64,000 nt of DNA from Cupriavidus basilensis (lineage in GTDB: Bacteria; Pseudomonadota; Gammaproteobacteria; Burkholderiales; Burkholderiaceae): contig NZ_CP062803.1 of the NCBI RefSeq assembly GCF_008801925.2, positions 1 to 64,000 on the forward strand. The letters are read 5' to 3'. Positions within the stretch are counted from its first letter, which is position 1; every line of letters begins with the position of its first letter. The position numbers and the translations under genes are program-made. Below are positions 24,421-50,555 of this stretch, one piece after another. Below the pieces are notes generated by a model. It searched no databases and had not been told where the DNA came from. It saw only the letters and a list, made by a program, of their open reading frames with translations.

Positions 24421-24552
24421 GTACGGACAGATTTGAATCCGAATGGAGAAACGGTGGGTCCGCCGCCCCGCACGGGGGAAGGGGCTGGGGGGATTTGTTC
24501 CAGCTTGCCGCCCCCTGACGTCTGGTCAAAAGCGGCTAAACAGGAGAGATCC

Positions 24553-25695
<1,143 letters not shown>

Positions 25696-30183: not shown

Positions 30184-32173
30184 GCAAGGATCAATTCTCA
30201 CGATTGATGACGTCTACCAACGTATTGTCGAAATCATCGGCGACCGTTTCCAACTGCGCGCCGCCAGTGACGGCGCACTGCATGAGTACTCGAGCCAGGA
30301 ACTCCTGAGCTTGTATGAGCACGCCCGTCTCAAGATCACAGCTCTTCAGAACTTCCCGGCAGAGGGCGAGGGGCGCTCCAAACAAGACCCTATCGAACGG
30401 GGTCTGGCGGATTTTTCCGAAGCGATACGAATCAAGGCTATTCGCAAGTGGAAGTACCTCACGGCCATTTGCCCAGACGGGCGGCTTTGGCTCAGTCGCA
30501 AGATCCTGCGCGAATCGCTTCGCATGTGTGCTGAAGAGATTGAGCCAGGAAAGAGGCCGCCAGGGATGGCAAGCTTCTATGCCTGGCGCCGGCGATGGGT
30601 GTTTGGCCATTTTGACATTCGAGCCCTAATAGATAAATGGGAGCTTCGTGGCCAACGGCCACGCTCGGAGTACCCCGAAGCACTTTGCGAACTGATCATC
30701 GAGGGCATCGAGAGCGTCTATTTAAATGAGCAGCGGGAGACCAAGGTGGAGCTGCGCGATTGGATAAATGCACGAATTAAAAAAGCGAACCTGACAAGAG
30801 CCCCAGAAGACGAACTTCGCGAAGTATCGATGCGATTGATCAACAGATTTCTCGATCAACACGAAAGATACTACGTGCTGAAGCGTCGCTATGGTGAGCG
30901 GATTGCAACACAACAGCTCACAATGTTTGGTAAAGGGCCAGAATGCACGCGGCTATTGCAGCGCGTCGAGGTTGATAATACTCCATTGGACCTCCTTGTC
31001 ATTGATGAAGCCACAAGGCTAGTTCTCGGCCGACCATGGATCACGGTCATGATTGACCGGTATTCGCGCATGGTAGTCGGCTTCTACGTGAGCTTTCGAA
31101 AGCCAAGCGTCGAATCGGTGCTTCGCTGCTTTCGCCACGCTATGCTTCCCAAGACGTACATGCGTGAAAAGTACCCTGAAATTAAGGGCACATGGCCGTG
31201 CTTTGGGCTGATAGAACAAATCGTATGCGACAACGGTCTTGAATTTCACGCGAAAGATCTAGAGGCAGCATGCGCGGATATCGGGACACATCTCCTCTAC
31301 TGCCAGCCTCGAACACCACATTTAAAGGGAGTGATCGAGCGCTTTCTAAAAACGCTCAATTACAACTTCCTCCACCTCGTTCCAGGGACCACATACTCAA
31401 CGTACGAAAAACGGCTTGGATACGACTCTGTAGCCAAAGCGGTCCTTACCCTAAGCGAACTTCAGCAGGCTCTCCACAAGTGGCTTGTGGAAGTATATGG
31501 CGCGACATATCACAGAGGCATCAACGCTGCACCTTTACAACGATGGAAGGAAGGTTTGGAACTCGATGCCCCTGAACTCGCGCCTGATCCACAGCGCCTC
31601 AAAGTATATCTAGGGCAAGTCGCCACGCGACAGTTGGATCGGAATGGCGTTCAATTGAACAATTTGCAGTATACGTCGGACGCGCTTCAACTTATTCGCG
31701 GGGATAAGAAGTCGCTAGAGGTTACGGTTAGGTATGACCCAGATGATCTGGGGACCTTGCATGTTTTGGATCTAGAGCGCAAGGAGTATGTCGCGGCAAG
31801 CTGCACAACGCCGGACTATGCAAAAGGGCTCACAGTTGAACAACATACCCTCATCAATAGAAGGGCGAAGAAGGATTATGCGGCATTGCCTCTACGCGAC
31901 GCCATGCTCGCTGCGAAACTGGAGTTGCGGGAATTTACCGAGCGCCTGCTGCAGACTCGTAGGCCACCGGAGTCTCGCAATAAGAGTCACCACGCTGCAG
32001 CCAAGGAGGCGCTACGGCAACACGCTGAAGCATCGCCGGAAATCTTGGATGCGAATCCACAGACCTGTTCCCGAGAGGCAAATATTTCCGACGACATTGT
32101 GTCGTGGCTGGCCGAGCAAAGCTTGTCGAGTTACGACGTTGAATCCCGCAACGTTGCCGGCAGGGAAGGCTGA
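30161..32173 (+). CDS. tnsB: TnsB-type DDE transposase of a Tn7-like transposon
   Basis: A 670-residue DDE integrase. Counting from ATG 30161, the catalytic residues are D282 (LLVIDEATRL), D357 (CDNGLEF) and E393 (KGVIERFLKT). N-terminal helix-turn-helix regions bind element ends, and a C-terminal Mu-B-like region should contact TnsC. GGAGG at 30153-30157 fits the second ATG (30164) slightly better. The size matches TnsB/TniA (about 560-700). AT content is clearly above that of the core genes. Confidence 0.93.
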   Translation: MMTRSLFKQGSILTIDDVYQRIVEIIGDRFQLRAASDGALHEYSSQELLSLYEHARLKITALQNFPAEGEGRSKQDPIERGLADFSEAIRIKAIRKWKYLTAICPDGRLWLSRKILRESLRMCAEEIEPGKRPPGMASFYAWRRRWVFGHFDIRALIDKWELRGQRPRSEYPEALCELIIEGIESVYLNEQRETKVELRDWINARIKKANLTRAPEDELREVSMRLINRFLDQHERYYVLKRRYGERIATQQLTMFGKGPECTRLLQRVEVDNTPLDLLVIDEATRLVLGRPWITVMIDRYSRMVVGFYVSFRKPSVESVLRCFRHAMLPKTYMREKYPEIKGTWPCFGLIEQIVCDNGLEFHAKDLEAACADIGTHLLYCQPRTPHLKGVIERFLKTLNYNFLHLVPGTTYSTYEKRLGYDSVAKAVLTLSELQQALHKWLVEVYGATYHRGINAAPLQRWKEGLELDAPELAPDPQRLKVYLGQVATRQLDRNGVQLNNLQYTSDALQLIRGDKKSLEVTVRYDPDDLGTLHVLDLERKEYVAASCTTPDYAKGLTVEQHTLINRRAKKDYAALPLRDAMLAAKLELREFTERLLQTRRPPESRNKSHHAAAKEALRQHAEASPEILDANPQTCSREANISDDIVSWLAEQSLSSYDVESRNVAGREG

Positions 32174-32183
32174 GGAGGCAATC

Positions 32184-33209
32184 ATGATCGCAGAAGATGG
32201 TAACGACCTTCCAAAGCGTCCCCCCGTGATACCCCCGGGACAATTGGCTGGTGATATGTTCCATAGTGGTACCCGGTCACTTCGACCGGCAGATATAGCC
32301 GTGTTTGAGTTTAGGCGGAAGCTCATCCGGTACCCGGCATTCACTTCTGCCATACAAGCCATTGAAAGGTGTCACCTATATGGCCGTCATCTGATCGAAG
32401 AGCCGGATTGCCTTCTCATTACCGGTGTATCGGGTGCCGGAAAGTCAACGCTGCGAAAGACGTATGCGAGTCGATATCCACATGAGGAACTTGAGGATCG
32501 CACAGTCTTACGCGTATTGGAGTTAGAACTTCCGTCGGCGCCGACAATAAAGAATGTCGCCGAGAGAATACTAATGGCCTTGGGCGATCCCTATGCGGAC
32601 AAAGGCTCCGCTGAAAGCAAGACGGCACGCATAATCACGCTGTTCAGGGAGTGTCGCGTTGAACTCGCAATGCTCGACGAGTTCCAGCAGTTCGTCGACA
32701 ACTCGGGGGGCAAGATCGAGTACAAGGTCGCCGACTGGCTCAAGCAGTTGATCAATGCTACACGGGTCCCCTTCGTGCTACTCGGTTTGCCTCGTTGCAA
32801 ACGGATCCTTGAGGTGAACGAACAGTTGCGCCGTCGGTTCCTTCCTCAAGCTAACCTGCCACCGTTCTCCATCAGTACAAAGCCGGAAGCGATCAAGTTC
32901 GCGGGGTTTCTCAATACGCTTCATTCGCAAACACCATTCAGCCGGCCATCCGCGTTCATCGAGCCCGCGGTGGTCCCTCTCATGTTCTATGCGACCAATG
33001 GACTCATTGACTATCTAATGAAGTTGACCAGCAATGCGCTATCTATCGCGCTGGAAGAGGGGCGTGACTGCATCGATCTCGATGTCCTAAGGCGAGCCTT
33101 CCAGGGTGCGATATGGCATCAGGCCGATCGGGAGCGCAATCCGTTTGATAGTGCTTTCGTACCCAGATCACTTAACAAAGATGGTGAACCGTTCAGTGGC
33201 TACTGCTGA
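32184..33209 (+). CDS. tnsC: TnsC/TniB-type AAA+ ATPase
   Basis: A 341-residue AAA+ regulator that links target recognition to TnsA/TnsB. The start is ATG 32184 with GAGGAGG just upstream. Walker A is TGVSGAGKST (about 80-89), Walker B LAMLDEFQQF, and the sensor/Arg-finger region LRRRFLPQ. It is shorter than E. coli TnsC (555) and similar to TniB. Its 3' end overlaps the first tniQ by 29 bp. Confidence 0.9.
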   Translation: MIAEDGNDLPKRPPVIPPGQLAGDMFHSGTRSLRPADIAVFEFRRKLIRYPAFTSAIQAIERCHLYGRHLIEEPDCLLITGVSGAGKSTLRKTYASRYPHEELEDRTVLRVLELELPSAPTIKNVAERILMALGDPYADKGSAESKTARIITLFRECRVELAMLDEFQQFVDNSGGKIEYKVADWLKQLINATRVPFVLLGLPRCKRILEVNEQLRRRFLPQANLPPFSISTKPEAIKFAGFLNTLHSQTPFSRPSAFIEPAVVPLMFYATNGLIDYLMKLTSNALSIALEEGRDCIDLDVLRRAFQGAIWHQADRERNPFDSAFVPRSLNKDGEPFSGYC

Positions 33210-34254
33210 GGAACAGCGTCCAGTGAAGCTCCTTGTCCGGCCCCGGCCGGACAAGGGTGAAAGCCTATTCGGCTACATCCACCGGGTGGGGGAGCTGAAC
33301 GGTCTGACCTCGTTGCGCTGGATTTCATCGATGCTGAGTGAGGCGGGGTTGTCCATCCCTGACCATAAGGTTCAGTTACTCGCGGAATCGGTCGGAATTG
33401 ACCCGGAGGACCTGTCCACTCTGACGTGTAGACCGATAGCGACTCAAATGGCAAACACCCTGCTGTTCATGGATGCATACGTACCGGTAGCACTCTTTCG
33501 GAAACAGCGATCTGCGATATGCGTGGAGTGCTTGCGAGGGCGAGATGCGACGCCAGCTGTCTGGGACCTTCGTTTGATTTGCGTCTGTGTAAGACACCGA
33601 CGTTGGTTGATCGATACATGTCAGAGATGCGGCTGCGCCCTCAGCTGGCGTCGCGAAAATTTGCTCCGATGCCGATGCGGTAATGACCTTACGTGCAGCA
33701 TTCAGAGTAATTTCGACCCGCCTGAAGCTGTATTGCTCTTTACGAAAGTACTGGAAGCTGAGCTCAGAAGCGAACTCCCGTTCGCGGAGGAGGCCGCTGC
33801 AAGATTTTCGTGCTTCACAACGGGGAGGTTGATTGCTGATTCCATCGCGGTATTTCAACAGGCGAGAAGCTACGTTCTGTGGTGGTGCGACCAAGAAAGA
33901 ATGGAGGTGCCGCGATCTACCTCTAGTCATTGCATTGACATGGCAACAGTCCGGACCATGTCAAAGGTATTGATAGACTGGCCGGCGGCCCTCCATGCTG
34001 AGTTGCGTCGGTGTTTGAAAACCACCCGAGCGGAGAGTTACGAATTTGCTTTGATTGGCAAGAGCGAACCTATGTTGACGATCACTCCGCTACACCGGCT
34101 GCCCCGTCATCTCAGAGAGGTAATGGGGGATGGATGCGTGAAATCAGCTTATCTAGAGTTCTGCGAGCAACATAAGATCGCTGCCAATGATTATCGGAGG
34201 CGCAGCGGTCGCCCGAAACGCTGGACACAGTTCCCTACCTACAACGGCGGGTAA
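33181..34254 (+). CDS. tniQ: TniQ-family target-selection protein 1
   Basis: A 357-residue protein beginning MVNRSVATAEEQ. It has the TniQ N-terminal domain (RPDKGESLFGYIHRVGELNG) and paired zinc-binding clusters: ICVECLRG, CVRHRRWLIDTCQRCGC and CRCGNDL. This short type lacks the long C-terminal DNA-binding part of TnsD. In Tn7-like elements a short TniQ and a longer one often serve different targets. Translation is coupled to tnsC. Confidence 0.85.
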   Translation: MVNRSVATAEEQRPVKLLVRPRPDKGESLFGYIHRVGELNGLTSLRWISSMLSEAGLSIPDHKVQLLAESVGIDPEDLSTLTCRPIATQMANTLLFMDAYVPVALFRKQRSAICVECLRGRDATPAVWDLRLICVCVRHRRWLIDTCQRCGCALSWRRENLLRCRCGNDLTCSIQSNFDPPEAVLLFTKVLEAELRSELPFAEEAAARFSCFTTGRLIADSIAVFQQARSYVLWWCDQERMEVPRSTSSHCIDMATVRTMSKVLIDWPAALHAELRRCLKTTRAESYEFALIGKSEPMLTITPLHRLPRHLREVMGDGCVKSAYLEFCEQHKIAANDYRRRSGRPKRWTQFPTYNGG

Positions 34255-34310
34255 GCGTACGACTCTGTTTTACAACTAAAGCGAAGCAGAAATTGGAGAA
34301 AGTGTTGGCA

Positions 34311-34484
34311 AGGCCGGAGCGCTGGCGGAGGTGGCCAACGAAAAAGGAGTTGGCCTCGATCGTGGAGCGCTAGCTTAGCGTGAACCCAAACCAGCTATTC
34401 CATGGGCGCAAGCTGTACCAATTCGGCAGCCTCTCGGCGGTCAGTGCTGGCGAGGAAGTGCTGCCGGACCTCGGAGCTGGATGA
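34311..34484 (+). pseudogene. Insertion-sequence OrfA (HTH) fragment
   Basis: One frame reads RPERWRRWPTKKELASIVER, a TAG stop, then NPNQLFHGRKLYQFGSLSAV and SAGEEVLPDLGAG. The second part matches the helix-turn-helix end of IS3 (IS2-group)- or IS66-type OrfA proteins. The middle of the domain is deleted and a stop interrupts it. It lies between the two tniQ genes, so an element once inserted there and was largely lost. Confidence 0.55.
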
Positions 34485-34539
34485 ACGAGCCCTAACCTAT
34501 TGCGAAGCACTAGCGGTGGTACTGGTCGGAGGCAAAGAT

Positions 34540-35874
34540 ATGCGACTATTGATTCGGCCATTGCCGCTAGCCTATGAGTCGAGGCAAGGTTATGTCCTTC
34601 GCTTGAGCTCACTGAATGGGTTCGATCATCCTCGATGGTGTGTACCTCTCGCGAGTGCTGGCGATGAAAAAGCTGCACGAAATGCAACCCTGGACGCCCT
34701 CACGGGACACGACAGTGCTACGCTATCAACGTTGCGCGGACCAATATTTGGTCTCGGCTCTATGAGTACACGCGATAGTGGTAATGTGGGCTCGAGATAT
34801 TGGAATACGCGCTGTCAGCGCTATTGCCCAATCTGCCTGGCCGGGCAACGATATCATCGCGCAATTTGGGGATTGACATTCGGCGTTGCTTGTCACGAAC
34901 ACTCCGTTTGGTTGCGCGATGACTGTCCAGTATGTGGGCAGAGCGTACGATGGACGGGCGCCTCACTCGGAAAATGCTCATGCGGGGCCCTACTTGAGAC
35001 TGCAGCTGCGCTGCCCTGCACAGAGAATGCCCGCTCCTATGTGCGTATGTTAGCTTCCGCTTTGCATCCTGGCTCAACAACTGCGCAAGCAGTTTCACCG
35101 CAAGTGCCGGCTCTTACGATCGACCAGTTGCTTCGTCTCACCTGGTTCCTTGGTGCATATGCTACTCGGAAGAAAGCGAAGGCACAGAAGATTTCCGGCA
35201 TCATGCACCTCGACTACGCTATCAACATGGTCGAGGCTACTGCCGCTATGCTGCTCAATTGGCCGAGTGGTTTTCACGCTCTGCTAGATGAGCTTGGGAC
35301 GAAGAGTGACGTCGCAACTAGCGGGAACAAACTTTCAGCCTACTTTGGGCGGTTTTACCATACCTTGTACAGGAGCTTTCCAGAGCCGTCGTTTGCGTTC
35401 CTGCGTGAGGGATTCGAGCATTACATCGTAAATCACTGGTCTGGCCAACTGGCCAAGCGGAACCAGAGGTTCTCGGCGGAATCGCGGGAGTCGCACGAAT
35501 GGATTTCTATCAAGGAGGCTGCTAGGGTCTTGCGCACGCGAACCACACGCGTGAAAGAGCTAGTTGAGAAGGGGCAGCTCGTTGGCCGGCTTTTCTCCAC
35601 GGCAAAGGGCCGAAAAATGGGGTCCGTTCTCAGGGACAGTGTGAACGCGGCGGTTGCGCGCGAGGCGAGCTTGGTTACGCTGCTCGAAGCTAGGCAGATA
35701 TTGGGGCTCTCAAAGAAGCGCCTGCACAAGCTCATAGCCGAGGGACGGCTTCGAGCGGTTAGGGGGCCAAAGGTAGATGGATGCCCGATATGGCAGTTTG
35801 AAAAGGGGACTCTCGCAGAAGCAACAAAAGTAATGACGGCGCCCGATAGTGCTCCATTGCGAAGACCGTGCTAG
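34540..35874 (+). CDS. TniQ/TnsD-like target-selection protein 2 with C-terminal DNA-binding motifs
   Basis: A 444-residue protein starting at ATG 34540 after GGAGG at 34528-34532. The N-terminal TniQ domain (RPLPLAYESRQGYVLRLSSL) is followed by zinc clusters (YCPICLAGQRYHR, CPVCGQSVRW, CSCGALL). The C-terminus has two helix-turn-helix units resembling excisionase/MerR motifs: ISIKEAARVLRTRTTRVKEL and TLLEARQILGLSKKRLHKLI. This suggests sequence-specific target binding like TnsD. The target is not evident here. The last codons run into an aminotransferase gene fragment on the other strand. Confidence 0.8.
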   Translation: MRLLIRPLPLAYESRQGYVLRLSSLNGFDHPRWCVPLASAGDEKAARNATLDALTGHDSATLSTLRGPIFGLGSMSTRDSGNVGSRYWNTRCQRYCPICLAGQRYHRAIWGLTFGVACHEHSVWLRDDCPVCGQSVRWTGASLGKCSCGALLETAAALPCTENARSYVRMLASALHPGSTTAQAVSPQVPALTIDQLLRLTWFLGAYATRKKAKAQKISGIMHLDYAINMVEATAAMLLNWPSGFHALLDELGTKSDVATSGNKLSAYFGRFYHTLYRSFPEPSFAFLREGFEHYIVNHWSGQLAKRNQRFSAESRESHEWISIKEAARVLRTRTTRVKELVEKGQLVGRLFSTAKGRKMGSVLRDSVNAAVAREASLVTLLEARQILGLSKKRLHKLIAEGRLRAVRGPKVDGCPIWQFEKGTLAEATKVMTAPDSAPLRRPC

Positions 35875-38843: not shown

Positions 38844-39991
38844 GAGGGCTCCCAGAAGGATATGGCAGGTTCATGTGCGGCCCGATTCCCTTGCAAAGCT
38901 GAGGTGGGCCGATATCTAGCCTAACGGCGAGGGTGAATCGATATTTGAGACCCCCTTCTGGGGGGTAACCAAGCACTCCTTGCCGCCATCGAGCGCTGCC
39001 GTCCGCATCTGCGCCGGCGCGCCGCCGAGCGGCTTTGGCTTGAGGCTCGGGCCTTCTTCGGCGAGGTCTCCATAGTCCGGATGCCGGCCATGAGCCCGTC
39101 CGGGCGCCCGATGACGTCACCGTCCAGCTCAAGGGGAGCGACGCGCAGTCTTGCCACGATCTAGCGTGGCGGTGCGGCCGCTGGCCAACCGCTTGGCAGC
39201 TTCGGCCAGGCGTTTCGCTAAATGCGCTACGTCCTCCTCTGGCCATTGGGCGTCTACCACGCGGAGCGCGCTCCGGACGTCATAGTTGACGCCTAGTGGA
39301 AGCGCCTTCGCCCCTCGCGTGACGACTGGGGCGTGGGGGAAGCGGACGCGCGACAGGCGTTGGCCTACATGATCCGGTCTGGATGCCGGCGCGCCAGGCA
39401 CTCCAATCAGGTGCTCTTGGGCAGCCGAGCTGCCTCCGGGTGGTCCGCCGACCTTTTGGATTGACACCGCAGGCGGCGCTCTCTCCGTCGAGGTCTCGCT
39501 CGTACTCATCGACGCCTAAGGCGGAACGTTGCGGCCAGGTCGGCGTCGCGCGCGTCGCCGGCTCAGTGGGATGCGCTCGCGCTCGCAAAGGAGGCTGCCG
39601 CCCGGCGCATCGCCGAGCGCAAGAACGGGCGTCGCGACAAAGGGCGCCGAAATGAGCGAGTCAAGCAAGGTGGCCCCTGTGTGAAGAGCAAGGTCGAGCG
39701 CCCGGCTCGGTGGCGACGGCGGTCATTCGTCCAGCAGGCCGAAGACCAGGCCATCCGGTGACGGTGTCATAGACCTCGACCGCGAAATCGCCGTTTGGGT
39801 TGGACAAGCGTACGATAGGCGGCCAAATCCGATCGCCTCGGATCTCTCACGATGGCTCGTTAGTTTAGTCTGGCGGCGGGACAGTCTTTTGCCTCCTGAG
39901 CTCTGTCGAAAATTGTTCATGGCCGCGTCATAAAATTGTCAACATCTGGTCGGAGCATGGGCAGCATTTACCACTGCAGCCTGGGGTGGAT
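38844..39991. other. Region without a recognisable gene
   Basis: About 1.15 kb between the membrane protein and the first recombinase. Short stretches look once coding (for example LLAAIERCRPHLRRRAAERL on the plus strand near 38980 and a 126-codon minus frame at 39129-39509), but none is complete or recognisable. The GC content is higher than on either side. It may hold remnants of mobile DNA and a boundary of the Tn7-like element, but no inverted terminal repeats were found. TTGTCAACATCT just before 39960 may be part of the recombinase promoter. Confidence 0.45.
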
Positions 39992-41560
39992 ATGCCAGAC
40001 TCAAACAACGGCAGTGCACGAGACGCCGGCCCGATCGAGCTTTTGCAGGTAGCTCAGTACGTGCGAATGTCGACCGAGCATCAACGGTACTCGACAGAGA
40101 ACCAGGCTGAAGCCATTTCGGACTACGCGACGTCGCACGGCATGCGAATCGTTCGCACATACCGCGACGACGGCAAGAGCGGGCTCAACCTTGGGGGCCG
40201 CGAGGGTCTGAGGAAACTTCTCTCGGATGTGCGGCAGGGTGCATGCGATTTCTCGGCGGTGCTCGTCTACGACGTTAGTCGTTGGGGACGCTTTCCGGAT
40301 CCAGACGAGGCCGCTGTCTATGAGTACACGTGTCGGCAGCACGGCATCCGCGTGATCTACTGCGCGGAGCAATTCGACAACGACAACTCCATGGGCTCCA
40401 CGATTCTGAAGAGTCTGAAGCGGAGCATGTCGGCAGAGTACTCGCGCGAGCTATCGGTAAAAGTCTTCGCTGGCCAGCGAACACTGGTGCTTAGGGGCTA
40501 TCGCCAAGGTGGCACCGCTGGATTTGGTTTGCGCAGACAACTTGTCGACCAAGACCATAATGTCAAAGGCATACTCCGGCTCGGTGAGAAAAAGAGCATC
40601 CAGACGGATCGAGTCTTGCTAGTTCCCGGGCCAGCTGAGGAGGTGGCCGCCGTCCGACGGATCTACTCGCTCTTTCTCGAGGCCGAGCAGCCAGAGCGAG
40701 TGATTGCTTCGACGCTCAACCGCGAAGGCATCCCAACAGACCTCGGCAGGCAGTGGACGCGCGGTACTGTGCATCAGGTGTTGACGAATGAGAAGTACAT
40801 CGGGAACAACGTCTACAACCGTACCTCGTTCAAGCTGAAGATAGAGCATCGTCGGAATCCAGCCGAAGAGTGGATTCGGAAGAATGGCGCCTTTGAGGCA
40901 ATCGTGCCAACAGAATGGTTCTTGCGCGCCCAGGCAATTATCGCGCAGCGATCACGTCATGTGGACGACGGACAAATGCTGGAATTGCTCAGGCAAGTGC
41001 TATCTAAGAACGGCGCCCTCTCGGGAATGATCATTGATGAGCAGGAGGGCATTCCTTCAAGTAGTGCCTACAGAGCTCGATTCGGCAGCCTTCTGCGCGT
41101 GTACTGTCTGTTGGGGTATCACCCAAAGCGCGACTATGGCTACCTTGAGATCAACCGCGCGCTGCGACGCATGCATCCGGAACTGATGGCCGAGGTATCA
41201 GATGGCATCCGTTCGGTTGGCGGCTGGTCACGGCGCGACGCGGATACCGACCTCCTGACTGTCAATGGTGAGTTCACGGCCTCGTTGGTTATTGCTCGGT
41301 GTAAGCCCACCCCCGCGGGTAGCTACCGGTGGCGTATCAGGTTAGACACAAGTCTTGACCCCGACATCACTCTCGTCGTTCGGATGGGAGGTTCCAATGA
41401 GTACCCCTTGGACTACTACCTGCTTCCCTCTTTCGATTTCTCGCTCGATGCACTGCCGCTGGCGGAGAGTAACGGCTTTGCGCTGGACGTGTATCAGTTC
41501 GCCTCCCTCGATTCCTTTTACTCCCTCGCCGCTCGCTCGTCCTTGAAGGAGGCCGCTTGA
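39992..41560 (+). CDS. Large serine recombinase 1
   Basis: About 522 residues. The resolvase catalytic domain starts QYVRMSTEHQRYSTENQ (nucleophilic Ser in RMST) and includes YDVSRWGRF and the regulatory helix EYSRELSVKVFAG. The recombinase domain contains TNEKYIGNNVYNR. A 200-residue C-terminal domain lacks an obvious zinc ribbon. The frame also has a GTG at 39986; ATG 39992 (MPDSNNG) is chosen. It is plainly homologous to the recombinase at 45241-46824, aligning over its whole length. Its TGA overlaps the ATG of the ParB-like gene downstream, so the two are coupled. Confidence 0.92.
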   Translation: MPDSNNGSARDAGPIELLQVAQYVRMSTEHQRYSTENQAEAISDYATSHGMRIVRTYRDDGKSGLNLGGREGLRKLLSDVRQGACDFSAVLVYDVSRWGRFPDPDEAAVYEYTCRQHGIRVIYCAEQFDNDNSMGSTILKSLKRSMSAEYSRELSVKVFAGQRTLVLRGYRQGGTAGFGLRRQLVDQDHNVKGILRLGEKKSIQTDRVLLVPGPAEEVAAVRRIYSLFLEAEQPERVIASTLNREGIPTDLGRQWTRGTVHQVLTNEKYIGNNVYNRTSFKLKIEHRRNPAEEWIRKNGAFEAIVPTEWFLRAQAIIAQRSRHVDDGQMLELLRQVLSKNGALSGMIIDEQEGIPSSSAYRARFGSLLRVYCLLGYHPKRDYGYLEINRALRRMHPELMAEVSDGIRSVGGWSRRDADTDLLTVNGEFTASLVIARCKPTPAGSYRWRIRLDTSLDPDITLVVRMGGSNEYPLDYYLLPSFDFSLDALPLAESNGFALDVYQFASLDSFYSLAARSSLKEAA

Positions 41561-42438
41561 TGGACCGCTCCAACGAAATCGTGATGCTTCCGATCGAATC
41601 GATATCCGTCGCCAATCCTCGCGTTCGCAACCGCAGAGTTCACAAGGAGATCACAGAAAATATCCACCGCGTCGGGCTGAAGCGCCCGATCAGCGTAAGG
41701 CGCCTGAATGATGGCAAGTTCGCGCTCATCTGCGGGCAAGGTCGTCTGGAAGCCTATCAAATGCTTGGTCAGTCTGAGATCCCTGCCCTCATAGTCGAAA
41801 CCGATGAGCAGACCGCGCACGTAATGAGCGTGGTGGAAAACGTCGCTCGCCGGAATCCGCGCGCAAGTGAGACGCTAGCACAAGTAGGCGCGCTTCGACA
41901 GCGCGGGTATAGCGATGCGGAGATAGGAAAGAAGATTGGCTGTACGGCGTCGTGGGTCGCCAACATAGCGAATTTGCTCGAGAAGGGAGAGAAGCGGCTT
42001 CTTGCCGCTGCCGAAGCTGGGCATATTCCTCTCTATCTCGCCGTCAATATCTCGCGCGTCAACGATGCGGAGGCGCAGCAACTGCTACTCGACGCCTACA
42101 ACAAGGGCGAACTCAAGGGGAAGAAGGTTAGCGTCGTCCGGCGGATACTTGAGTTGCGCGCGCGCGTTGGCAAGGCTGTGAGTCCAAGCCGTTCCGGCAC
42201 GACATCCCGGAAGCAGCTGAGTCCCGCCGAACTAACGAAGCTCTTCAACCGCGAGGCCGAAAGGCATCGGCTCTTCCAGAAGAAGGCAGAGCTCGCGCAT
42301 CAATCGCTGACGGTTGCCTGCGAGATCTTCAAAGAGCTGTATGCCAATCACGAGTTCGTAGGACTCCTCCGGACAGAAGCTCTTGACAACGTGCCACAGC
42401 CACTTCTGGAAAGCGCGCGTAAGGGAGGTTTGTTGTGA
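41560..42438 (+). CDS. ParB-like protein A1
   Basis: A 292-residue ParB/Spo0J-fold protein. ATG 41560 follows AAGGAGG by seven bases and overlaps the recombinase stop. The N-terminal ParB domain contains PIESISVANPRVRNRR and ICGQGRLEAYQMLG (the GERR-like nucleotide-binding motif reads GQGR), then VVENVARRNP and a KorB/ParB-type helix-turn-helix GYSDAEIGKKIGCTASWVAN. The C-terminus is helical. No parA is present, so plasmid partition is unlikely. It is paralogous to the protein at 44342-45244. Confidence 0.88.
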   Translation: MDRSNEIVMLPIESISVANPRVRNRRVHKEITENIHRVGLKRPISVRRLNDGKFALICGQGRLEAYQMLGQSEIPALIVETDEQTAHVMSVVENVARRNPRASETLAQVGALRQRGYSDAEIGKKIGCTASWVANIANLLEKGEKRLLAAAEAGHIPLYLAVNISRVNDAEAQQLLLDAYNKGELKGKKVSVVRRILELRARVGKAVSPSRSGTTSRKQLSPAELTKLFNREAERHRLFQKKAELAHQSLTVACEIFKELYANHEFVGLLRTEALDNVPQPLLESARKGGLL

Positions 42439-43352
42439 TGGAAAAGGAAAAGCGAAACAAGCCGATTGCTCTCGGCTTCGAGACCACGTGGATCGACATC
42501 CCAGTGTCGAATCTCCGCCCTACGAAGAATGTGCCAGTCTCGATCAAAGACACCGCGAAGTATCGTCAGATACGCTCATCGGTGAAGGCGATAGGCCTTG
42601 TTGAGCCGCTGGTAGTAATACCCTCCGTCGGCCAGGCTGGCTGCTTTTCCATCCTCGACGGACACCTTCGTGCAGAGGCGCTCAGAGAGCTTGGCATTGA
42701 GCGAGCACCATGTCTGATCTCGACCGACGACGAGGCATACACCTACAATAAATGCGTTAGTCGTCTCGCTTCGATTCAAGAGCACAAGATGGTCGTCTTG
42801 GCCTTTGAACGGGGCGCATCCGTCGAACTGCTTAGCGAGGCCCTTGGTATCTCCGTGCAAGCAATCCGTCAGCGGTTCAAGATGCTGGATGGCATCTGCG
42901 ACGAAGCTATCAGCGTCCTCGCCGACAAGCCAGTACCCCACGGTGCGTTCAAGATCCTTCGTCAAATGCAGGCCTTTCGGCAGATCGACGTCGCCAACGC
43001 GATGGTCAATCTCAGTAATTTCTCGATTCGTTTCGCCGAAGCCATGCTCGAATCAACGCCAGTGGAACTGTTAAATGTGGGCGCCAGAAAGAAGGTGGAG
43101 GCCACTAGTTCGACTGAGGCAGTGCAGCGGCTCGAGCGCGAGCTTGCCGTTCTGCATGACGACACAAAGCTGCTGGAGGAGACCTATGGCCCGGACAATC
43201 TTAGGCTCGTTGTCATAAGGAGGTACATTGAGGGTCTGTTGAACAATGCCAAGGTCGTTCGGTGGCTTGCGCAGTATCGCCGCGACTATCTTCAGCAACT
43301 ACAAATTCTCGCTGACTCCGATAGACCGTCCAGAGCGAAGTCGGTAGCCTAG
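42438..43352 (+). CDS. ParB-like protein B1
   Basis: A 304-residue ParB-fold protein of a second subfamily. ATG 42438 (or GTG 42435) follows GGGAGG at 42423-42428 and overlaps the previous stop. Key motifs are SSVKAIGLVEPLVV, LDGHLRAEALRELG (D-G-H-x-R in place of GERR), the conserved DDEAYTYNKCVSRLASIQEH, and an HTH around LLSEALGISVQAIRQRFKML. It is paralogous to 43464-44345. The two ParB types may form a heteromeric complex that directs the recombinase. Confidence 0.87.
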   Translation: MEKEKRNKPIALGFETTWIDIPVSNLRPTKNVPVSIKDTAKYRQIRSSVKAIGLVEPLVVIPSVGQAGCFSILDGHLRAEALRELGIERAPCLISTDDEAYTYNKCVSRLASIQEHKMVVLAFERGASVELLSEALGISVQAIRQRFKMLDGICDEAISVLADKPVPHGAFKILRQMQAFRQIDVANAMVNLSNFSIRFAEAMLESTPVELLNVGARKKVEATSSTEAVQRLERELAVLHDDTKLLEETYGPDNLRLVVIRRYIEGLLNNAKVVRWLAQYRRDYLQQLQILADSDRPSRAKSVA

Positions 43353-43463
43353 GGTTTTCTACGCTCGAGTACGGATCAAGCTCCGATGAGGACGTCAGAG
43401 TCGTCGCCAGCCACACTTCCGCATGAGTGGCACCGTGCGCAGTTGCGGTGACGAGGGAGCGAC

Positions 43464-44345
43464 CTATTGATCCAACGAGACCGTTTGTACAATCATCTCG
43501 AACTCGGCGAGGAGATCAGGCTGTCTCTGGCGAAGGAAGGCGGAAATCGATTCGTTCTCCAGTAACTTCCCCAGGTACCCCTTGGCCAATACAAGATTGA
43601 GAACGTCCTGGCCATATGTCTGTTCGACGAGCTTATATTGTCCCTGCAGATTTCCCATCTCACGCTCCATCTTTCCCATCTGTTCTTGGGTAACACCAGT
43701 CAATTTCTTAGGCTTCTTGCCATTGATCAAAAGTGGAACTGGCGTTGCAACCAGCAGCGCCTCGGCATAGCCCACCGTGAGATTGTTCGCAGAGACCATG
43801 AGCTCGATGCACTCCACTTGTCTGGTAGGCTTCATCTTCCGAATTGCACGCGACAACTCTGGTGAGAATTGGCGATCCTTGAGTAGCTCAGTCGCCTCGG
43901 GGCAGATCCCATTGAGAAGGGTGATCTTCTTCTGGATATGAGAGACGTCGACGCTCAATGCTTTGGCCAGACGCTCTGGAGAGACGCCGCGGTCGATGGC
44001 GCGTCGAAGCATGAGGTGCTCTTGGATCGTGGACAGCCGATTGATGCGGTTGTTATACGTGTACATTTCGTCATCTGTAGCGACGAGGCAAGATGCCTCA
44101 ACGTAACCCAGGTCGCGGAGTGCAATGAGTCTAATGTGGCCGTCGAGCAGGACATGTTGCCCTGACTGTTGGTTCGCGGCAGTTACCGTAAGGGGTTCAA
44201 TGAGGCCGATCTCTTCTATCGAAGATTTGATTTGTTTGAATTTCCGAGAGATCCCTATCCCGTCAGGCGGTCTCCGAGATGGAAGGATGCAGACGACTGG
44301 GACGCTGAGTGGTTCCGGTATAAACCCAAGGGTGATGCCGCTCAT
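43464..44345 (-). CDS. ParB-like protein B2
   Basis: A 293-residue paralogue of B1 on the opposite strand. Shared motifs: SSIEEIGLIEPLTV, LDGHIRLIALRDLG, DDEMYTYNNRINRLSTIQEH and KALSVDVSHIQKKITLLNGI. Its start overlaps the A2 stop by ATGA (44342-44345). It converges with B1 across only 111 bp (43353-43463), where no clear terminator was found. Confidence 0.87.
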   Translation of the reverse strand: MSGITLGFIPEPLSVPVVCILPSRRPPDGIGISRKFKQIKSSIEEIGLIEPLTVTAANQQSGQHVLLDGHIRLIALRDLGYVEASCLVATDDEMYTYNNRINRLSTIQEHLMLRRAIDRGVSPERLAKALSVDVSHIQKKITLLNGICPEATELLKDRQFSPELSRAIRKMKPTRQVECIELMVSANNLTVGYAEALLVATPVPLLINGKKPKKLTGVTQEQMGKMEREMGNLQGQYKLVEQTYGQDVLNLVLAKGYLGKLLENESISAFLRQRQPDLLAEFEMIVQTVSLDQ

Positions 44346-45244
44346 GAAAGGCTCCCGCCGGGCCAGACCCGCTCGGACAGATATTTCGGCAAGGTGGCCA
44401 AGTCCTCGGCTCGAAGGAGATTCACAAAGTTCTCATCCACAAACAGCTGACGAAGCGCACCTATTACAAAAAGAAGGCGTTGCTGCGCGAATTCCGCTTT
44501 TCTTACAATCGCCTTTTGGCGCTCAACCTCGTTCTGATACGTGCGCACAAGGCTTGAGCTGGTGACATCGCTCATCTTGCGCGGCATCCTGTGCGCTGCT
44601 GATCTTCCCAGAGTCTGCCTCCGTTCGATGACGCGGCGGGCGTCCATCAACTGCTTTCCGCGGAGTTTTCCGGATTCATACGCCTCTTGTAGTGCCGCTT
44701 GGACGGCCTTGTCGTCGTCACCGGCGCCCACAATCGTCAGGGCGGCATTGAGCGGAATGCTTCCTTTCTCAACAGCTACAAGAAGGCGTTCTTCGCCCTG
44801 CTGCAACAGGGTGAGTATCCCCTGGACGTACTGCTGGGTAAGGCCGGTTTTCTCGGCGATGGTTTTTGGGGTGTACCCCTGGTCGTGCAGTTGTCTTATG
44901 CCAGACAGTAGCTCCAGGGACCTGCACTGGCGCCGCGCTATGTTCTCCGTAAGACTCATGAGAAACGCATCCTCGTCACTCACGTGAACAACAAGCGCAG
45001 GAATTGTTGTCTCCCCGAGTGAGCGGAATGCCTTGAGTCTCCCCTCGCCGCATACGAGCATGTATCGCTCATCTCCGTTTGCGCCCGCACGCGGTGTGAC
45101 GGTGATGGGCTTCTTAAGTCCTATTAATTTGATGTTGCCGACTATCTCTTCGAAGACGCGGCCGTTTCGTTCCCGGGGATTGAGGACCTGGACCCGATCA
45201 ATGGGGATCATCCGGACTTCACCGGGTTGTCGCTTCTCGATCAT
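44342..45244 (-). CDS. ParB-like protein A2
   Basis: A 300-residue paralogue of A1: PIDRVQVLNPRERNGR, VCGEGRLKAFRSLG, LTENIARRQCRSLELL, and HTH GYTPKTIAEKTGLTQQYVQG. It overlaps both neighbours by ATGA (44342-44345 and 45241-45244), so the recombinase and both ParB-like proteins are translationally coupled. Sequence divergence from A1 shows that the duplication is old or that the cassettes were acquired separately. Confidence 0.88.
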   Translation of the reverse strand: MIEKRQPGEVRMIPIDRVQVLNPRERNGRVFEEIVGNIKLIGLKKPITVTPRAGANGDERYMLVCGEGRLKAFRSLGETTIPALVVHVSDEDAFLMSLTENIARRQCRSLELLSGIRQLHDQGYTPKTIAEKTGLTQQYVQGILTLLQQGEERLLVAVEKGSIPLNAALTIVGAGDDDKAVQAALQEAYESGKLRGKQLMDARRVIERRQTLGRSAAHRMPRKMSDVTSSSLVRTYQNEVERQKAIVRKAEFAQQRLLFVIGALRQLFVDENFVNLLRAEDLATLPKYLSERVWPGGSLS

Positions 45245-46824
45245 GCTGACCTCCGAACCTTCGCGCGAGCTGCCATTCCATACAAGTAATCAAGCGTGTC
45301 AAATCTGTAGCTCTCGAACTCAACCGGGTTCCGGTCGGCTAGGTTGATGCGCGGCCGACAGAAGTCGAGCCTCGGGAGCAAGTAGTAGTCCAAGGGGGCT
45401 GCGTTTGCATGATCCAATCTCACCGCGACTGTGATATCCGGCACTAAGCTTGTATCGAATCGCACCTTCCAGTGGCTATGCCCGTTCTCATGGGCTTGGC
45501 AGCGCGCCAGGACGAGCGAGGCACTGAATTCTCGGTTCACGGTGAGCATATCGGTCGCAGGGTCACGAGTCACCGCACCGCCGAGAGCGGCAATCTGTTC
45601 CTCCGTTTGTGCCACGATTTCGGGATGGAGGCGCCTGAGGAAGCGGTTCGTTTCCACATATCGATAGTCCCGATCTGGAGTAAATCCAACTGTTTGGTAG
45701 GCGCGAATGAGGCTGCCGAAGCGATACACATAGACAGAGGTGGATGGCATGCCTTCGGTCTCATCGATGACCAGGCCGGAAAGGAAGCCGCGGCTTCTGT
45801 AGAGAGACCGCAACCGTTCGATCAGCTCATCATCCGTGTAACGCCGGGCCCGTGCGCGCATAATTCCCTGGGCCGTGTAGAAGATGTCGCTGGGCACTAT
45901 TGAGTCAAAGGCGTGTTCCTTTCGTATCCACATGTCTGGCGTGTTCGAGACCCGCATCTTCTTCAGCTTGAAGGAAACGCGGTTGTACACATTGTTGCCG
46001 ATGTATTTCTCGTTCGTTAGTACCTCCCTAACAGTGGCACGGCTCCAGGCACGGCCAAGCTCGGTTTGGATCCGCATGCCGTTCAGTCGCGCGGCGATTT
46101 CATATTCGTTCAGTGCCTCATCAATGAACCAAGCGTAGATGAGATTGACCGTGCGGACCTCGCTGTCCGGGCCAGGCATCAGGATGACGCGGTCGGTCTG
46201 CAGGCTTTTGTGCTCTCCTCGTTCAAGAGGCCCTTTCATGATTCCGTGTTGGTCGACGAGTACTCGGCGGAGTCCGTATCCCGCAGGGCCGCCTTGTCTG
46301 AATCCGAGCTCGATCAATCGGCACTGGCCGGCGAAGACTTTGGCTGACAGCTCTCGACTGTACTCGCCCGCCATGGCGCGCTTGACGCCTTTGACTATCG
46401 TCGAAACGGGAGATCCATCGTTCTCGAACTGTTCCGCGCAATAGGCGACCTGAAGGCCGGCGCGCCGACAGATGTACTCGTAGTAGGCGCTTTCATCTGC
46501 ATCCTGGAATCTCCCCCAACGGCTGACGTCGTACACCAGAATCACCTTGAAGTCGGCTGTGCCGGCCTCCACGTCGCGGATCAGGTCTTGAAGCGCTTGG
46601 CGCCCGTCGATCCGTAGGCCACTTTTTCCTTCGTCAGCATAGGTTCGAACAATCTCGAAACCTCGCCGGCTTGCATACTCCCGGATCTTGTCTCGCTGGT
46701 TCTCCGTTGAATACTGCTGATGCTCGGTCGACATGCGAACGTACTCGGCGGCCCGTAATCCCGCCGTTTGCGCCATCGCGCCCATGTGTTGGTTGTCCGT
46801 CTGCATGATCTTGACCCACCGCAT
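45241..46824 (-). CDS. Large serine recombinase 2
   Basis: A 527-residue protein (or 521 from ATG 46806, MQTDNQHMG). Catalytic start EYVRMSTEHQQYSTENQ, then YDVSRWGRFQD, EYSRELSAKVFAG, and TNEKYIGNNVYNRVSFKLKK. It aligns with recombinase 1 throughout, very closely in the catalytic domain. It is followed by A2 and B2 with ATGA overlaps and preceded by a zinc-ribbon gene in the same orientation. Its target sites are unknown. Confidence 0.92.
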   Translation of the reverse strand: MRWVKIMQTDNQHMGAMAQTAGLRAAEYVRMSTEHQQYSTENQRDKIREYASRRGFEIVRTYADEGKSGLRIDGRQALQDLIRDVEAGTADFKVILVYDVSRWGRFQDADESAYYEYICRRAGLQVAYCAEQFENDGSPVSTIVKGVKRAMAGEYSRELSAKVFAGQCRLIELGFRQGGPAGYGLRRVLVDQHGIMKGPLERGEHKSLQTDRVILMPGPDSEVRTVNLIYAWFIDEALNEYEIAARLNGMRIQTELGRAWSRATVREVLTNEKYIGNNVYNRVSFKLKKMRVSNTPDMWIRKEHAFDSIVPSDIFYTAQGIMRARARRYTDDELIERLRSLYRSRGFLSGLVIDETEGMPSTSVYVYRFGSLIRAYQTVGFTPDRDYRYVETNRFLRRLHPEIVAQTEEQIAALGGAVTRDPATDMLTVNREFSASLVLARCQAHENGHSHWKVRFDTSLVPDITVAVRLDHANAAPLDYYLLPRLDFCRPRINLADRNPVEFESYRFDTLDYLYGMAARAKVRRSA

Positions 46825-46927: not shown

Positions 46928-47098
46928 GACACGTCATCTCTTTGCAATCGTGATCTGGTCTGCTCCCGGCCGCGCCAGGACTGTAATTCGGACTATCCAC
47001 GAGTCCATCTTTGCAATCAGTCCGGAGGACGCGGGAGCGAGCGCGTAAAGGCCAGAGGGTACGGCTGTCAGGTTCCGCCACGCGTCCATCTTTGCAAT
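46928..47098. repeat. Three spaced repeats within the zinc-ribbon gene
   Basis: CCACG(A/C)GTCCATCTTTGCAA (plus-strand reading) occurs at 46997-47017 and 47078-47098, differing at one base over 21. A weaker third copy ending CTCTTTGCAAT lies at 46928-46948. Spacing is 69 and 81 bp. They could be recombinase or ParB binding sites, or a simple coding duplication. Confidence 0.5.
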
Positions 47099-47383
47099 GC
47101 GTCGCCTTACGTTTCGGCGCCGCTGCTGTTCTCGGTTTCGATCGCTGTAGGCTGGGTGTCGGATGCGATACAACCGCCAATAGTCCGCATGATCTGAGGC
47201 CCACACGCGCTGCGCCCGGGCTTGGTTCTCCCGGTAATCGGCGTCGGTGCGCAGCCGCTGTCGCTGCCATTCGCGACGCCGTTGCCGCTGGCACTCCGGG
47301 GACGGACAGAAGCGCTGGCCAGGCGTCTGAGGGCGAACTTCGAAAGGCAGTCCGCACGCTGGGCACTGCCGGATGGCTTTCAT
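46934..47383 (-). CDS. Zinc-ribbon protein preceding recombinase 2
   Basis: A 149-residue basic protein. ATG 47383 (MKAIRQCPACGLPFEV) has a GGGGAG site seven bases upstream. CPAC and CPSPEC form a zinc ribbon, followed by a very basic helix (RQRRREWQRQRLR) that should bind DNA. The C-terminal part repeats IAKMD-A/S-W (RRIAKMDAW, GLIAKMDSW, then ITIAKR), encoded by near-identical DNA repeats. It probably belongs to the recombinase-2 operon (109 bp upstream). No counterpart lies in front of recombinase 1. Confidence 0.6.
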   Translation of the reverse strand: MKAIRQCPACGLPFEVRPQTPGQRFCPSPECQRQRRREWQRQRLRTDADYRENQARAQRVWASDHADYWRLYRIRHPAYSDRNREQQRRRNVRRRIAKMDAWRNLTAVPSGLYALAPASSGLIAKMDSWIVRITVLARPGADQITIAKR

Positions 47384-47455
47384 GCGCTTGCTCCCCACCG
47401 GCCGCGAACCGGAAGCGATGACGAGGGTCGCGAGCGTCTACCCCGCTCGGGCGCT

Positions 47456-47631: not shown

Positions 47632-47835
47632 GGTCCAGCTAAATCAGGCTCGAGTTCACTGCAGTCCAGCCAATTCCGGTTCTTTTGCGCGGGACCCGTG
47701 CCGAAGAATCTTTTCAAGTGCTTGATTTACTTAGAGTCGTAGTCCAGCGATCTCCGGTTTCGCACACAGTTGACAGAGAAAGTGAAAATTTCGACAGGTT
47801 AGTGAAAATTCATTGACGCAGTTAGTGAAAATTTC
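47632..47835 (-). mobile_element. Insertion-sequence terminus remnant (right island border)
   Basis: Reading on the minus strand, motifs like those after gyrB recur: CCGGAGATCGCTGGACTAC (47739-47757), CCGGAATTGGCTGGACTGC (47661-47679) and a partial copy (47632-47648). Outside them, AGTGAAAATT occurs three times (47781, 47801 and 47824; spacing 20 and 23 bp). Multiple end repeats of this kind fit IS21-like or related element termini. The element interrupts the 3' end of the PLD-fold gene. No transposase remains here. The rest of 47384-47730 holds the CTAG-rich inverted repeat and no gene. Confidence 0.6.
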
Positions 47836-49572
47836 CAAGGAGGGGCGTAGCGGCCGCTTATTTTCGAGAGCGCCCACAGATCCATCAACCGATGCACTCG
47901 ACGTGGCGTGACAATGACCCTGCATTCGTATGACGGGGTTTTCGTCGCGTGCGGCGTGAGCGAGTGCCGCCGGGTCTTCCTCCACTGCCGGCGGATCTCC
48001 CGGCATATACTCGCCCGGATCCCGATCCAGGGGCAGGTCCGCGCCGAGGTAGTGGTACATCCAGTCTTCGGCGGTGGGGAAGACGTACCGCTCGCGCTGC
48101 TCGAACAACTGCGCTGAATGCCGGAATGGCAAGTAATGAAAGAGCGACGGATCGGCGCGCAGGCTGAATCGCAAGTTTCGACCGCCTAGCAGGCACCTCG
48201 CCAGCAGGGAACGTTCCAAAGGTTGCGATCGTCCGTCGTCAAAGCGCAATACGGTAGCGCCCCAGATGACCTCGTAGGCCGCGAGCCGGTCTAGCTCATC
48301 GGGAGCCGCCTTCACGAAGAAGGCCATCTCCTCGGACGTCTCTGCCTCGCGCAACTCGATACCTTGCACAAAGTCCGGATAGCCGGCGAGCGGAACATAG
48401 TCGTCATCGTCGTCGGTGGGTGGCGTAGCCACAGGGGTCGAGACGGGCAACTCTTTGAAGCGGTCGGCCGCCTCGGCGCAAAGGCTGCGGCGCAGGCTCT
48501 CCAGCAATGCGTCCATGTTTCCGCGATACGGCCGGGCAACGCCCAGCTCGTGATTGCCGCCACACCAGGCCTTGCGGGTGAAGTTTCCGCTGCCGAGATA
48601 CACCAGCGCATCATTGCCCCGCGCCAGGATCAGAATTTTGGCGTGCAATTTGCGGCCGATGGCGTGATCTGCAATATCGTTTGACTGGTTTGCTTGCGCG
48701 ATGCGTGCTAGCTCCTGATCAGAGATTTTCTTCGGGATGAGGAAGAGCCGTGTCGAGGTCGCGCCGTGAAAGTGGCGCTGGCAGAGGTATTCCGAGACCG
48801 TCTCGTCGGTGACGACATCGAGTCGTGTCAACTGCGGGAACGTGTCATGCACATCGTCGATCAACATGCGGCCTTCGATCGTCCTGTCGAAGAACGGAGA
48901 TACGACAATGGCCCGTTCAGGCGGCGCGTGAATGCCGAATGTCTCGCTCCACCGCTGCGCGAGCGACGCGAGAGCGTGCTGCGCGTCATAGCCCTGGTGG
49001 ATCAACGTGGCGCGGCCGGTGTCGGGAAGATCCTTCCAGCGGCTAAGGCGCCGGTCGACTTCCTCCAGGGCTGCAGCGAGCGAAGTGGAGTCGAACGACG
49101 CGTAGCCCTTTCGCAGGACACCCAGGAATTCGGCCAGCAGCGCTCGATCGTCGGTTTCCTTGTCGGTCCAGCAGAAGGTGTCGAACACCTCGCGATTGGA
49201 AAAAAGTCCAGATCGCGTCAGATTCATCGAACCGAGTGCCAGGTGGACGCAGGACCTGGTCACCACAAGATATGCCTTCGGGTGATGGCAGGTATACGCC
49301 GGCATCCGTACCGGCAGCAATTCCATGAAGTGCGGCAATCGCAAATCGGCGCGGGTTTTGCGCGCATCGTAGATCATGACGGGCACGGTCTGGGCGATCC
49401 GCGCCAGATGCGTCATGCGTGGCTCGAACTGCTTGCCAAGCGGCTGTAGTGCACTCAGGTTCAGTACCTGCTCGTCGTCGAACTCGTAGCTCAGCACGAC
49501 GATAGGTGTCCCTAAGTAACGGGAAGAAACCAGTGTAGTGTTGCTCTCCCTTCGCCTTGTCCGGCATGTCAT
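47731..49572 (-). CDS. Phospholipase-D-fold (HKD) protein, 3' end replaced by insertion-sequence DNA
   Basis: A 613-residue frame with two PLD phosphodiesterase motifs: HHPKAYLVVTRSCVHLALGS followed by MNLTRSGLFSNRE, and LHAKILILARGNDALVYLGS followed by GNFTRKAW. Two HKD motifs make one active site, typical of PLD nucleases or lipases linked to defence helicases. After about residue 570 the reading passes into repeat DNA (EIFTNCVNEFSLTCRNF is encoded by AGTGAAAATT repeats), so the native C-terminus is lost. The N-terminus is uncertain: the first 20 or so residues overlap the upstream frame. Confidence 0.7.
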   Translation of the reverse strand: MTCRTRRRESNTTLVSSRYLGTPIVVLSYEFDDEQVLNLSALQPLGKQFEPRMTHLARIAQTVPVMIYDARKTRADLRLPHFMELLPVRMPAYTCHHPKAYLVVTRSCVHLALGSMNLTRSGLFSNREVFDTFCWTDKETDDRALLAEFLGVLRKGYASFDSTSLAAALEEVDRRLSRWKDLPDTGRATLIHQGYDAQHALASLAQRWSETFGIHAPPERAIVVSPFFDRTIEGRMLIDDVHDTFPQLTRLDVVTDETVSEYLCQRHFHGATSTRLFLIPKKISDQELARIAQANQSNDIADHAIGRKLHAKILILARGNDALVYLGSGNFTRKAWCGGNHELGVARPYRGNMDALLESLRRSLCAEAADRFKELPVSTPVATPPTDDDDDYVPLAGYPDFVQGIELREAETSEEMAFFVKAAPDELDRLAAYEVIWGATVLRFDDGRSQPLERSLLARCLLGGRNLRFSLRADPSLFHYLPFRHSAQLFEQRERYVFPTAEDWMYHYLGADLPLDRDPGEYMPGDPPAVEEDPAALAHAARDENPVIRMQGHCHATSSASVDGSVGALENKRPLRPSLEIFTNCVNEFSLTCRNFHFLCQLCAKPEIAGLRL

Positions 49573-50251: not shown

Positions 50252-50487
50252 GGACTCAGATTCCTGCCGCGATTGTTTGTATTTGGCTCGGCGAGTTTGC
50301 CAACCGACTGCCTCACCCGTCGTCCGGCTCGCGCCATCCTTTGGTAGGGTATTGCACCTCAAACGACCGGAGGAAGCGCGAACGTCGATCTAACGGACGA
50401 AATTGCGCCAACCTTTAGCGCTTTATTTTAGTGCTTTGTACCTGAGCGAGTTGTGGGCGTTGACCATGGTCATACCCCCAGCACAGC

Positions 50488-50510
50488 ATCTGCGCATTTC
50501 GTGCGCGGAT
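50488..50510. promoter_or_regulatory. Candidate WYL-regulator operator, copy 1
   Basis: A 23-bp imperfect palindrome with left arm ATCTGCGCAT and right arm GTGCGCGGAT. It matches the element at 52455-52477 at 19 of 23 positions. It lies between the PLD operon and the WYL gene and just before a -10-like TACGAT (50515-50520), so it could autoregulate the WYL gene. Confidence 0.55.
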
Positions 50511-50555
50511 CCGCTACGATAGCGCCTCCCGACAACAATTAAACAACGGTTCCAG

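Follow-up and report, generated by a model that had tools for sequence, protein, structure and literature searches.

Facing serine recombinase–ParB–ParB operons of Cupriavidus basilensis as candidate site-specific recombination modules

What do two operons do that each couple a large serine recombinase to two ParB-like proteins, and does it matter that they face each other? The question is raised by the first 64,000 nucleotides of contig NZ_CP062803.1 of Cupriavidus basilensis, hereafter the window, where two such recombinase–ParB–ParB (Rec–ParB–ParB) operons converge. We compared them with their relatives in other genomes and on plasmids. With modest confidence, we consider each half probably to be a self-contained, self-mobile site-specific recombination module with ParB-like accessory factors. 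The module is a sharply bounded unit in two plasmid families, and we infer that the operon recombinase acts at the bounding sites there and likewise in the window. The operon genes, left half (A) and right half (B), are as follows.

39986..41560, + strand: Rec-A, large serine recombinase, 524 amino acids
41557..42438, + strand: ParB1-A, RepB/ParB-like, 293 amino acids, with CGxGR and ENxARR motifs
42435..43352, + strand: ParB2-A, diverged RepB/ParB-like, 305 amino acids, with a DGHxR motif and without ENxxR
43464..44345, - strand: ParB2-B, RepB/ParB-like, 293 amino acids (open reading frame (ORF), PF07506, comparison with ParB2-A)
44342..45244, - strand: ParB1-B, RepB/ParB-like, 300 amino acids (PF07506, PF02195; matches Spo0J, Noc and ParB structures)
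45241..46824, - strand: Rec-B, large serine recombinase, 527 amino acids (Pfam, comparison with Rec-A)

An earlier reading of the sequence alone (the sequence-only reading) had described this pair, and both operons are confirmed, at 39986-43352 on the + strand and 43464-46824 on the - strand. The start-stop overlaps that it reported are borne out (4 base pairs (bp) at all four gene junctions), and the 111-bp gap between the halves separates ParB2-A from ParB2-B. It was also right that the halves are paralogous and that the ParB pairs are the more diverged, but it overstated the likeness of the recombinases as very similar: Rec-A and Rec-B are 55% identical (276/505), and identity between the halves is 38% for ParB1 and 39% for ParB2. 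The DNA of the halves is 70-79% alike, only across stretches of 51-81 bp. PF07506 has four matches in the 8.94-Mb genome, all of them these four ParB-like genes, and one further weak relative of Rec (28%, over part of its length) lies elsewhere in the genome. By Pfam analysis of the operon genes, ParA is present in neither operon; no search for ParA was made elsewhere in the genome. The operons encode a recombinase and two ParB-like proteins only, which supports the earlier view that ordinary partition is unlikely.

Both recombinases contain a Resolvase domain (PF00239, E-values 9e-24 and 1.7e-23) followed by a Recombinase domain (PF07508, 1e-22 and 4e-18). Residues S29, D96, R99 and R102 of Rec-A are invariant and R27 is nearly so in alignments of 25, and we take all five to have catalytic roles. 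Phage serine integrases carry a zinc-ribbon and coiled-coil domain; no zinc-ribbon Pfam match was obtained for the recombinases up to an E-value of 1. The predicted recombinase structure is of middling confidence (mean pLDDT, the predicted local distance difference test, 68; pTM, the predicted template-modelling score, 0.36). The best fold match of the Rec-A model is Bxb1 (9iu2), and residues from about 385 onward have no evident counterpart among the 50 fold matches listed. All four partner proteins match RepB (PF07506) above the cut-off. ParB_N (PF02195) is above it in both ParB1 proteins and below it in both ParB2 proteins, just under for ParB2-A. In ParB1-A, C59, G60, G62 and R63 as well as E94, N95, A97 and R98 are invariant (18 sequences), as are D75, G76 and R79 in ParB2-A (28 sequences), and the ParB2 profile matches Noc structures. 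Judged by family and motifs, the suggestion of the sequence-only reading that ParB-like spreading or clamping could license recombination is plausible.

Plasmids of Agrobacterium and other Rhizobiaceae reveal the boundaries of the module. pAtC58 (locus L039) and pAt1D1460 (L090) have in common a unit of 3904 bp, 96.9% identical and set in unrelated flanks, that consists of a short divergent gene, Rec, ParB1 and ParB2. The 19-bp site CCTTGAANGGANTYGAACC lies at both edges of the unit in both plasmids, with one mismatch in one site per plasmid. In pAtCFBP5507a (L091) the left flank continues to one site of this type and then differs. Other modules end at the same site: they carry Fic genes (L090, L105, L106, L107), AbiEii genes (L039, L091, L109) or a VapBC pair (L109). 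Two plasmids together have the VapBC module at three places, with 99.5-99.6% identity; divergence upstream starts at the first site in all three, and divergence downstream starts at the second site in one of the three. A slightly wider pattern, CCTTGANNGGANTYGAACC, has 58 occurrences in eight plasmids when at most one mismatch is allowed, and its reversed form has 0; the pattern was written after the sites in L039, L090 and their kin had been seen, and the counts there are not blind. Its occurrences are strongly polar: pAtC58, for instance, has 10 in reverse and 0 in forward orientation. The core is CG|C in 22, GC|T in 9 and CA|C in 2 of 33 distinct site contexts. On the Rhizobium 32-5/1 plasmid NZ_CP120639.1 the sites have one polarity in one arc and the opposite polarity in another, as though linked to the direction of replication. 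The reverse-strand consensus, GGTTCRANTCC, resembles the T-arm of a tRNA; a tRNA origin of the site was rejected, with 0 tRNA genes in 11 loci.

The same sites mark both ends of large deletions, relative to pAtC58 (NC_003064.2), in three sequenced pAtC58-type plasmids, those of GV2260, GV3101 and BG5. The first pattern gave 10 sites in pAtC58 and left the GV2260 and GV3101 record lengths unexplained; it was then loosened and gave 27, all on one strand (reversed control 3). Only the loosened pattern detects 327474 and 235724, which are two of the five deletion sites. The GV2260 deletion (83,846 bp) is the exact distance between sites 327474 and 411320, and the GV3101 deletion (175,596 bp) is that between 235724 and 411320; 27 sites make 351 pair distances, with a chance of about 351 in 542,868 of an exact match to a given length. 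In BG5, sites 206287 and 400721, which are 194,434 bp apart, are joined according to site order and sequence, the junction having been read by eye. Junction sequences confirm all three deletions. Each joins two sites of one core class, and the crossover tract common to both parents measures 5 bp (GCTCT), 8 bp and 9 bp. Tracts of 5-9 bp are too short for ordinary homologous recombination, and a tract of 5 bp fits a serine enzyme whose overlap is 2 bp. The bounding sites are active on pAtC58-type plasmids. The repeats of Morton et al., as they appear in review passages (PMC4231840; PMC6778807), are presumably this site. A link to site-specific DNA rearrangement, proposed in the sequence-only reading, is thus found among relatives of the operon, in the form of site-bounded modules and of pAtC58-type deletions.

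The second plasmid family is that of Sphingobium. pSPHCH01 has ars genes, one site and DUF2493, and pSF1 and CAP-1 p1 have ars genes, a site, the operon module, a site and DUF2493, so that in the comparison of pSF1 with pSPHCH01 the module is flanked on each side by a copy of a roughly 75-bp site, the two copies being similar. pNIN3 and pTomMM15c have the module without ars, and its left edge there shows only the last bases of the site (CGGCCGTG); KK22 p1 has other cargo. The Sphingobium site is unlike that of Agrobacterium and occurs one or two times in each of six records. On the right, the flanks of pSF1 and pSPHCH01 share only 78% identity, and homologous exchange between Sphingobium plasmids may therefore have taken place.

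The operon is widespread. Of 299 genomes sampled from the family, 41 have ParB2 relatives, the window's own genome among them, and plasmids of Agrobacterium, Sphingobium, Pseudomonas aeruginosa and Piscinibacter carry annotated copies of the operon. A genome-contig scan with one protein gave two loci. Our locus table has 46 loci, and by count from this table 38 have all three genes in order, three of them with a frame break. The other eight are cut by an edge (L043, L079, L081, L082), are remnants (L042 and L044, at one place, and L065) or are rearranged (L045, where the recombinase gene is inverted relative to its two ParB genes). Gene overlaps of 4 bp or 1 bp are common. Distances of the three proteins correlate closely (r 0.944, 0.962 and 0.984; 0 of 999 permutations as high) in a Mantel test of 40 of the 46 operons, which left out three broken ones and three near-duplicates. 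Gene order and correlation uphold the earlier proposal that the three proteins form one unit. After ParB2 a common site was not seen, and sequences part at or shortly past the stop codon. Two B-type operons from two genera (L071, L072) are 100% identical together with flanks of 2.5 kb on either side, which points to recent transfer. Two annotated operon copies examined in S. meliloti are decayed, and a search for empty sites of the plasmid operon in P. aeruginosa found most of the query in no more than two records.

The two halves belong to different lineages of the operon. Within the set of operons compared, the nearest relative of Rec-A is that of L038 (67%), and Rec-B is nearest to several loci (82-84%); in a wider protein search, relatives of Rec-A reach 76% among the best 120 of at least 8000. 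Different closest relatives had been named in advance as evidence against a meaningful pair, yet operon copies do cluster: three other complete pairs occur among the 46 loci, two in tandem (L048, L052) and one divergent (L070). The inverted orientation and the homology of the halves would suit an invertible or exchangeable switch, which the sequence-only reading had raised. We find this scarcely credible, since the DNA of the halves is alike in short stretches only and none of the other complete pairs is convergent. The facing arrangement looks accidental, and a function for it is unsupported.

In the window, both operons probably lie inside a Tn7-like transposon of about 28.6-47.8 kb, with a terminus placed by repeats only.

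29482..35874, + strand: Tn7-like transposition genes (Pfam; block about 76% identical in genome G002)
29482..30183, + strand: TnsA (Pfam)
30137..32173, + strand: TniA (Pfam)
31788..33209, + strand: TniB (Pfam)
33106..34254, + strand: TniQ, first (Pfam)
34402..35874, + strand: TniQ, second (Pfam)
47651..47840, - strand: probable right end of the element, with short direct repeats partly common to genomes G002 and G266

Apart from the repeats at 47651-47840, neither an end-to-end inverted repeat nor an exact terminus or target duplication of the element was found. A 15-mer, ATCAAAGACTTACGA, was tried as a mark of transposon ends and set aside, with occurrences in 6 of 200 genomes (reversed control 0) being too few to use. 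In G002 the tni block is 76% identical over window positions 28672-33788 and shares a contig with a B-type operon. G266 has a B operon as well as tni genes; its fetched stretch yielded no A operon. In 10 of the 46 loci the fetched stretch contains one or more tni genes, and in nine of these ten the B-type operon points towards the tni genes (L082: only the ParB2 end). From this orientation, B appears to reside habitually close to the far end of these elements. In L038, TniQ is followed by an A-type operon of the same direction, and A would have been added separately to the window element.

Upstream of Rec-B are a further small gene, which like the Tn7-like transposition genes goes unmentioned in the sequence-only reading, and three direct repeats.

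46934..47398, - strand: zinc-finger-like protein, 154 amino acids, in the same direction as Rec-B (cysteine pattern)
47083..47097, - strand: repeat S1, TTGCAAAGATGGACG, within the zinc-finger ORF
47002..47016, - strand: repeat S2, within the zinc-finger ORF, 81 bp from S1
46930..46947, - strand: repeat S3, TTGCAAAGAGATGACGTG, at the 3' end of the zinc-finger ORF

The protein has no Pfam match above the cut-off, and its cysteine pattern is common to ORFs upstream of B-type operons. The gene is present in 24 of 26 selected B-type loci, a set that does not include L050 and L054, where the gene is interrupted by insertion sequences. Breaks in L050 and L054 had looked site-specific, as if S1-S3 were insertion points; by their ends they are insertion-sequence events. 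The B unit of L054 recurs in five other genomes of one genus at 92-94% without the L054 flanks. In other lineages the upstream position is taken by a short divergent gene, whose annotation is hypothetical in pAtC58 and DeoR-family in pNIN3. Rec-A, ParB1-A, ParB2-A and the zinc-finger protein, the four proteins scanned, gave no PADLOC defence match. The 81-bp spacing of S1 and S2 is kept in all 16 loci with two motifs, and alanine is encoded by GCA at all 38 motif positions, compared with 52 of 372 positions in the rest of these ORFs (Fisher p 5.6e-29, which overstates independence, as the loci are related). S1 and S2 are constrained at the DNA level.

Such an array might instead serve resolution or stability, with the recombinase resolving plasmid multimers or cointegrates at S1-S3-like sites and the ParB-like proteins acting as a topological filter, in the manner of TniR of Tn402-type elements and the parCBA operon of RK2. 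Three constrained direct repeats upstream of Rec-B speak for this, as does the location of operons on plasmids and, in 10 of 46 loci, next to tni genes. We nevertheless judge it distinctly unlikely. The window element encodes TnsA, in whose presence cointegrates are not expected, the module moves between contexts, and pAt sites are dispersed over the plasmid and yield large deletions.

Several observations also weigh against our preferred reading, a self-mobile module acting at its own bounding sites. The scan of 46 operons found no bounding site for the window operons. It returned a repeat scoring 24 around L071/L072, and the pAt repeats scored only 17 and 15 against a background of 12-16; those sites stand out only by plasmid-to-plasmid comparison. 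The S motif shows no dispersal across the window genome, where two of its three matches (at most one mismatch) are S1 and S2, and B units have a ragged downstream edge. Six of the eight site-bearing Rhizobiaceae plasmids lack the operon ParB2, with weak matches to other ParB proteins in three, and none of these six appears in the 60 records listed out of 66 that have a related recombinase. Another recombinase may therefore act at the Rhizobiaceae sites; other replicons of those strains were not searched. The operon would then be a passenger, moved by that enzyme as one of many modules, and Rec–ParB–ParB would do something else, an account that also fits the recombinase-free modules (VapBC, Fic, AbiEii) bounded by the same sites. 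We rate it as rather unlikely. The operon's own recombinase keeps its conserved catalytic residues, the Sphingobium module has another site at its boundaries, which would be expected of sites that follow the recombinase lineage, and integron cassettes can outlive their integrase.

Under the module reading, the large serine recombinase would cut and rejoin DNA at short sites, and the two ParB/RepB-like proteins would be DNA-binding accessory factors that assemble or license the complex, ParB1 perhaps by nucleotide-gated clamping. The fourth small protein, zinc-finger-like in B-type operons and the product of the divergent gene elsewhere, might control expression or mark the site. As a cassette, the module would move from site to site, either by itself or within a larger element, and in the window two lineages would have gathered in one Tn7-like transposon, B by the probable right end and A downstream of the tni genes. 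A broader proposal, which we offer tentatively as possible, is that the system is a serine-recombinase counterpart of integrons, in which Rec and two ParB-like proteins move polar-site cassettes, themselves included, on plasmids and transposons of Proteobacteria and cause the At-plasmid deletions of GV3101 and GV2260. If the operon acts at the bounding sites, the ParB family gains a role in site-specific recombination, a widespread mobile operon gains a mechanism, and At-plasmid loss in common plant-transformation strains gains a cause. The pAtC58 sites make the question directly testable, whichever enzyme is responsible.

Other genes of the window touch on defence and metabolism. A PLD-domain protein right of the Tn7-like element (47731-49572) matches the ZacB and DrmC profiles and is followed by a WYL-domain gene (50556-51620); positions 47731-51620 are possibly a defence island. 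A type IIG restriction enzyme-methyltransferase is encoded at 19787-22897 (PADLOC, E-value 9e-277). For the S-adenosylmethionine synthetase gene at 24433-25695, a DNA match of 71% at position 328439 of this contig suggests a second copy.

How does the operon compare with known systems? No description of a Rec–ParB–ParB operon was recognised in the literature searched (open-licence papers only), and the widespread gene set is seemingly undescribed. The large serine recombinases Bxb1, TP901-1 and YokA have the same Resolvase and Recombinase domains, with matches in sequence and fold; the operon enzyme differs in having no Pfam zinc-ribbon match and two ParB-like partners in its operon. ParB, Spo0J, Noc and RepB share the ParB_N and RepB domains, and ParB1 keeps the GxGR and ENxxR-type motifs, whereas the operon lacks ParA, has its ParB-like genes in fixed linkage to a recombinase and always has two different copies, ParB2 being without ENxxR. 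Tn7-like transposons contribute the TnsA, TniA, TniB and TniQ genes around the window operons, of which a Rec–ParB–ParB operon is, to our knowledge, not a known core component. In the part available to us, a survey of Tn7 target selectors describes the tyrosine-recombinase-derived TnsF and Tsy, and neither 'RepB' nor 'resolvase' occurs in that text (PMC10293859). Compared with Tn402-type transposons, the operons have large-type recombinases instead of a small TniR resolvase with a res site. RIT elements (recombinase in trio), built of three tyrosine recombinases, are likewise three-gene recombinase operons that move as a unit; here one serine recombinase is joined by two ParB-like proteins. 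Integrons and Xer-dependent pdif modules involve small modules and short recombination sites, with toxin-antitoxin pairs among the modules, and the Rhizobiaceae plasmid modules are likewise bounded by short sites and include toxin-antitoxin pairs. They differ in the sequences of their sites and in a candidate enzyme that is of the serine type and lies itself inside the module; within the operon, to which this comparison applies (other plasmid integrases were not searched), the enzyme is a serine recombinase and not an IntI-type tyrosine integrase.

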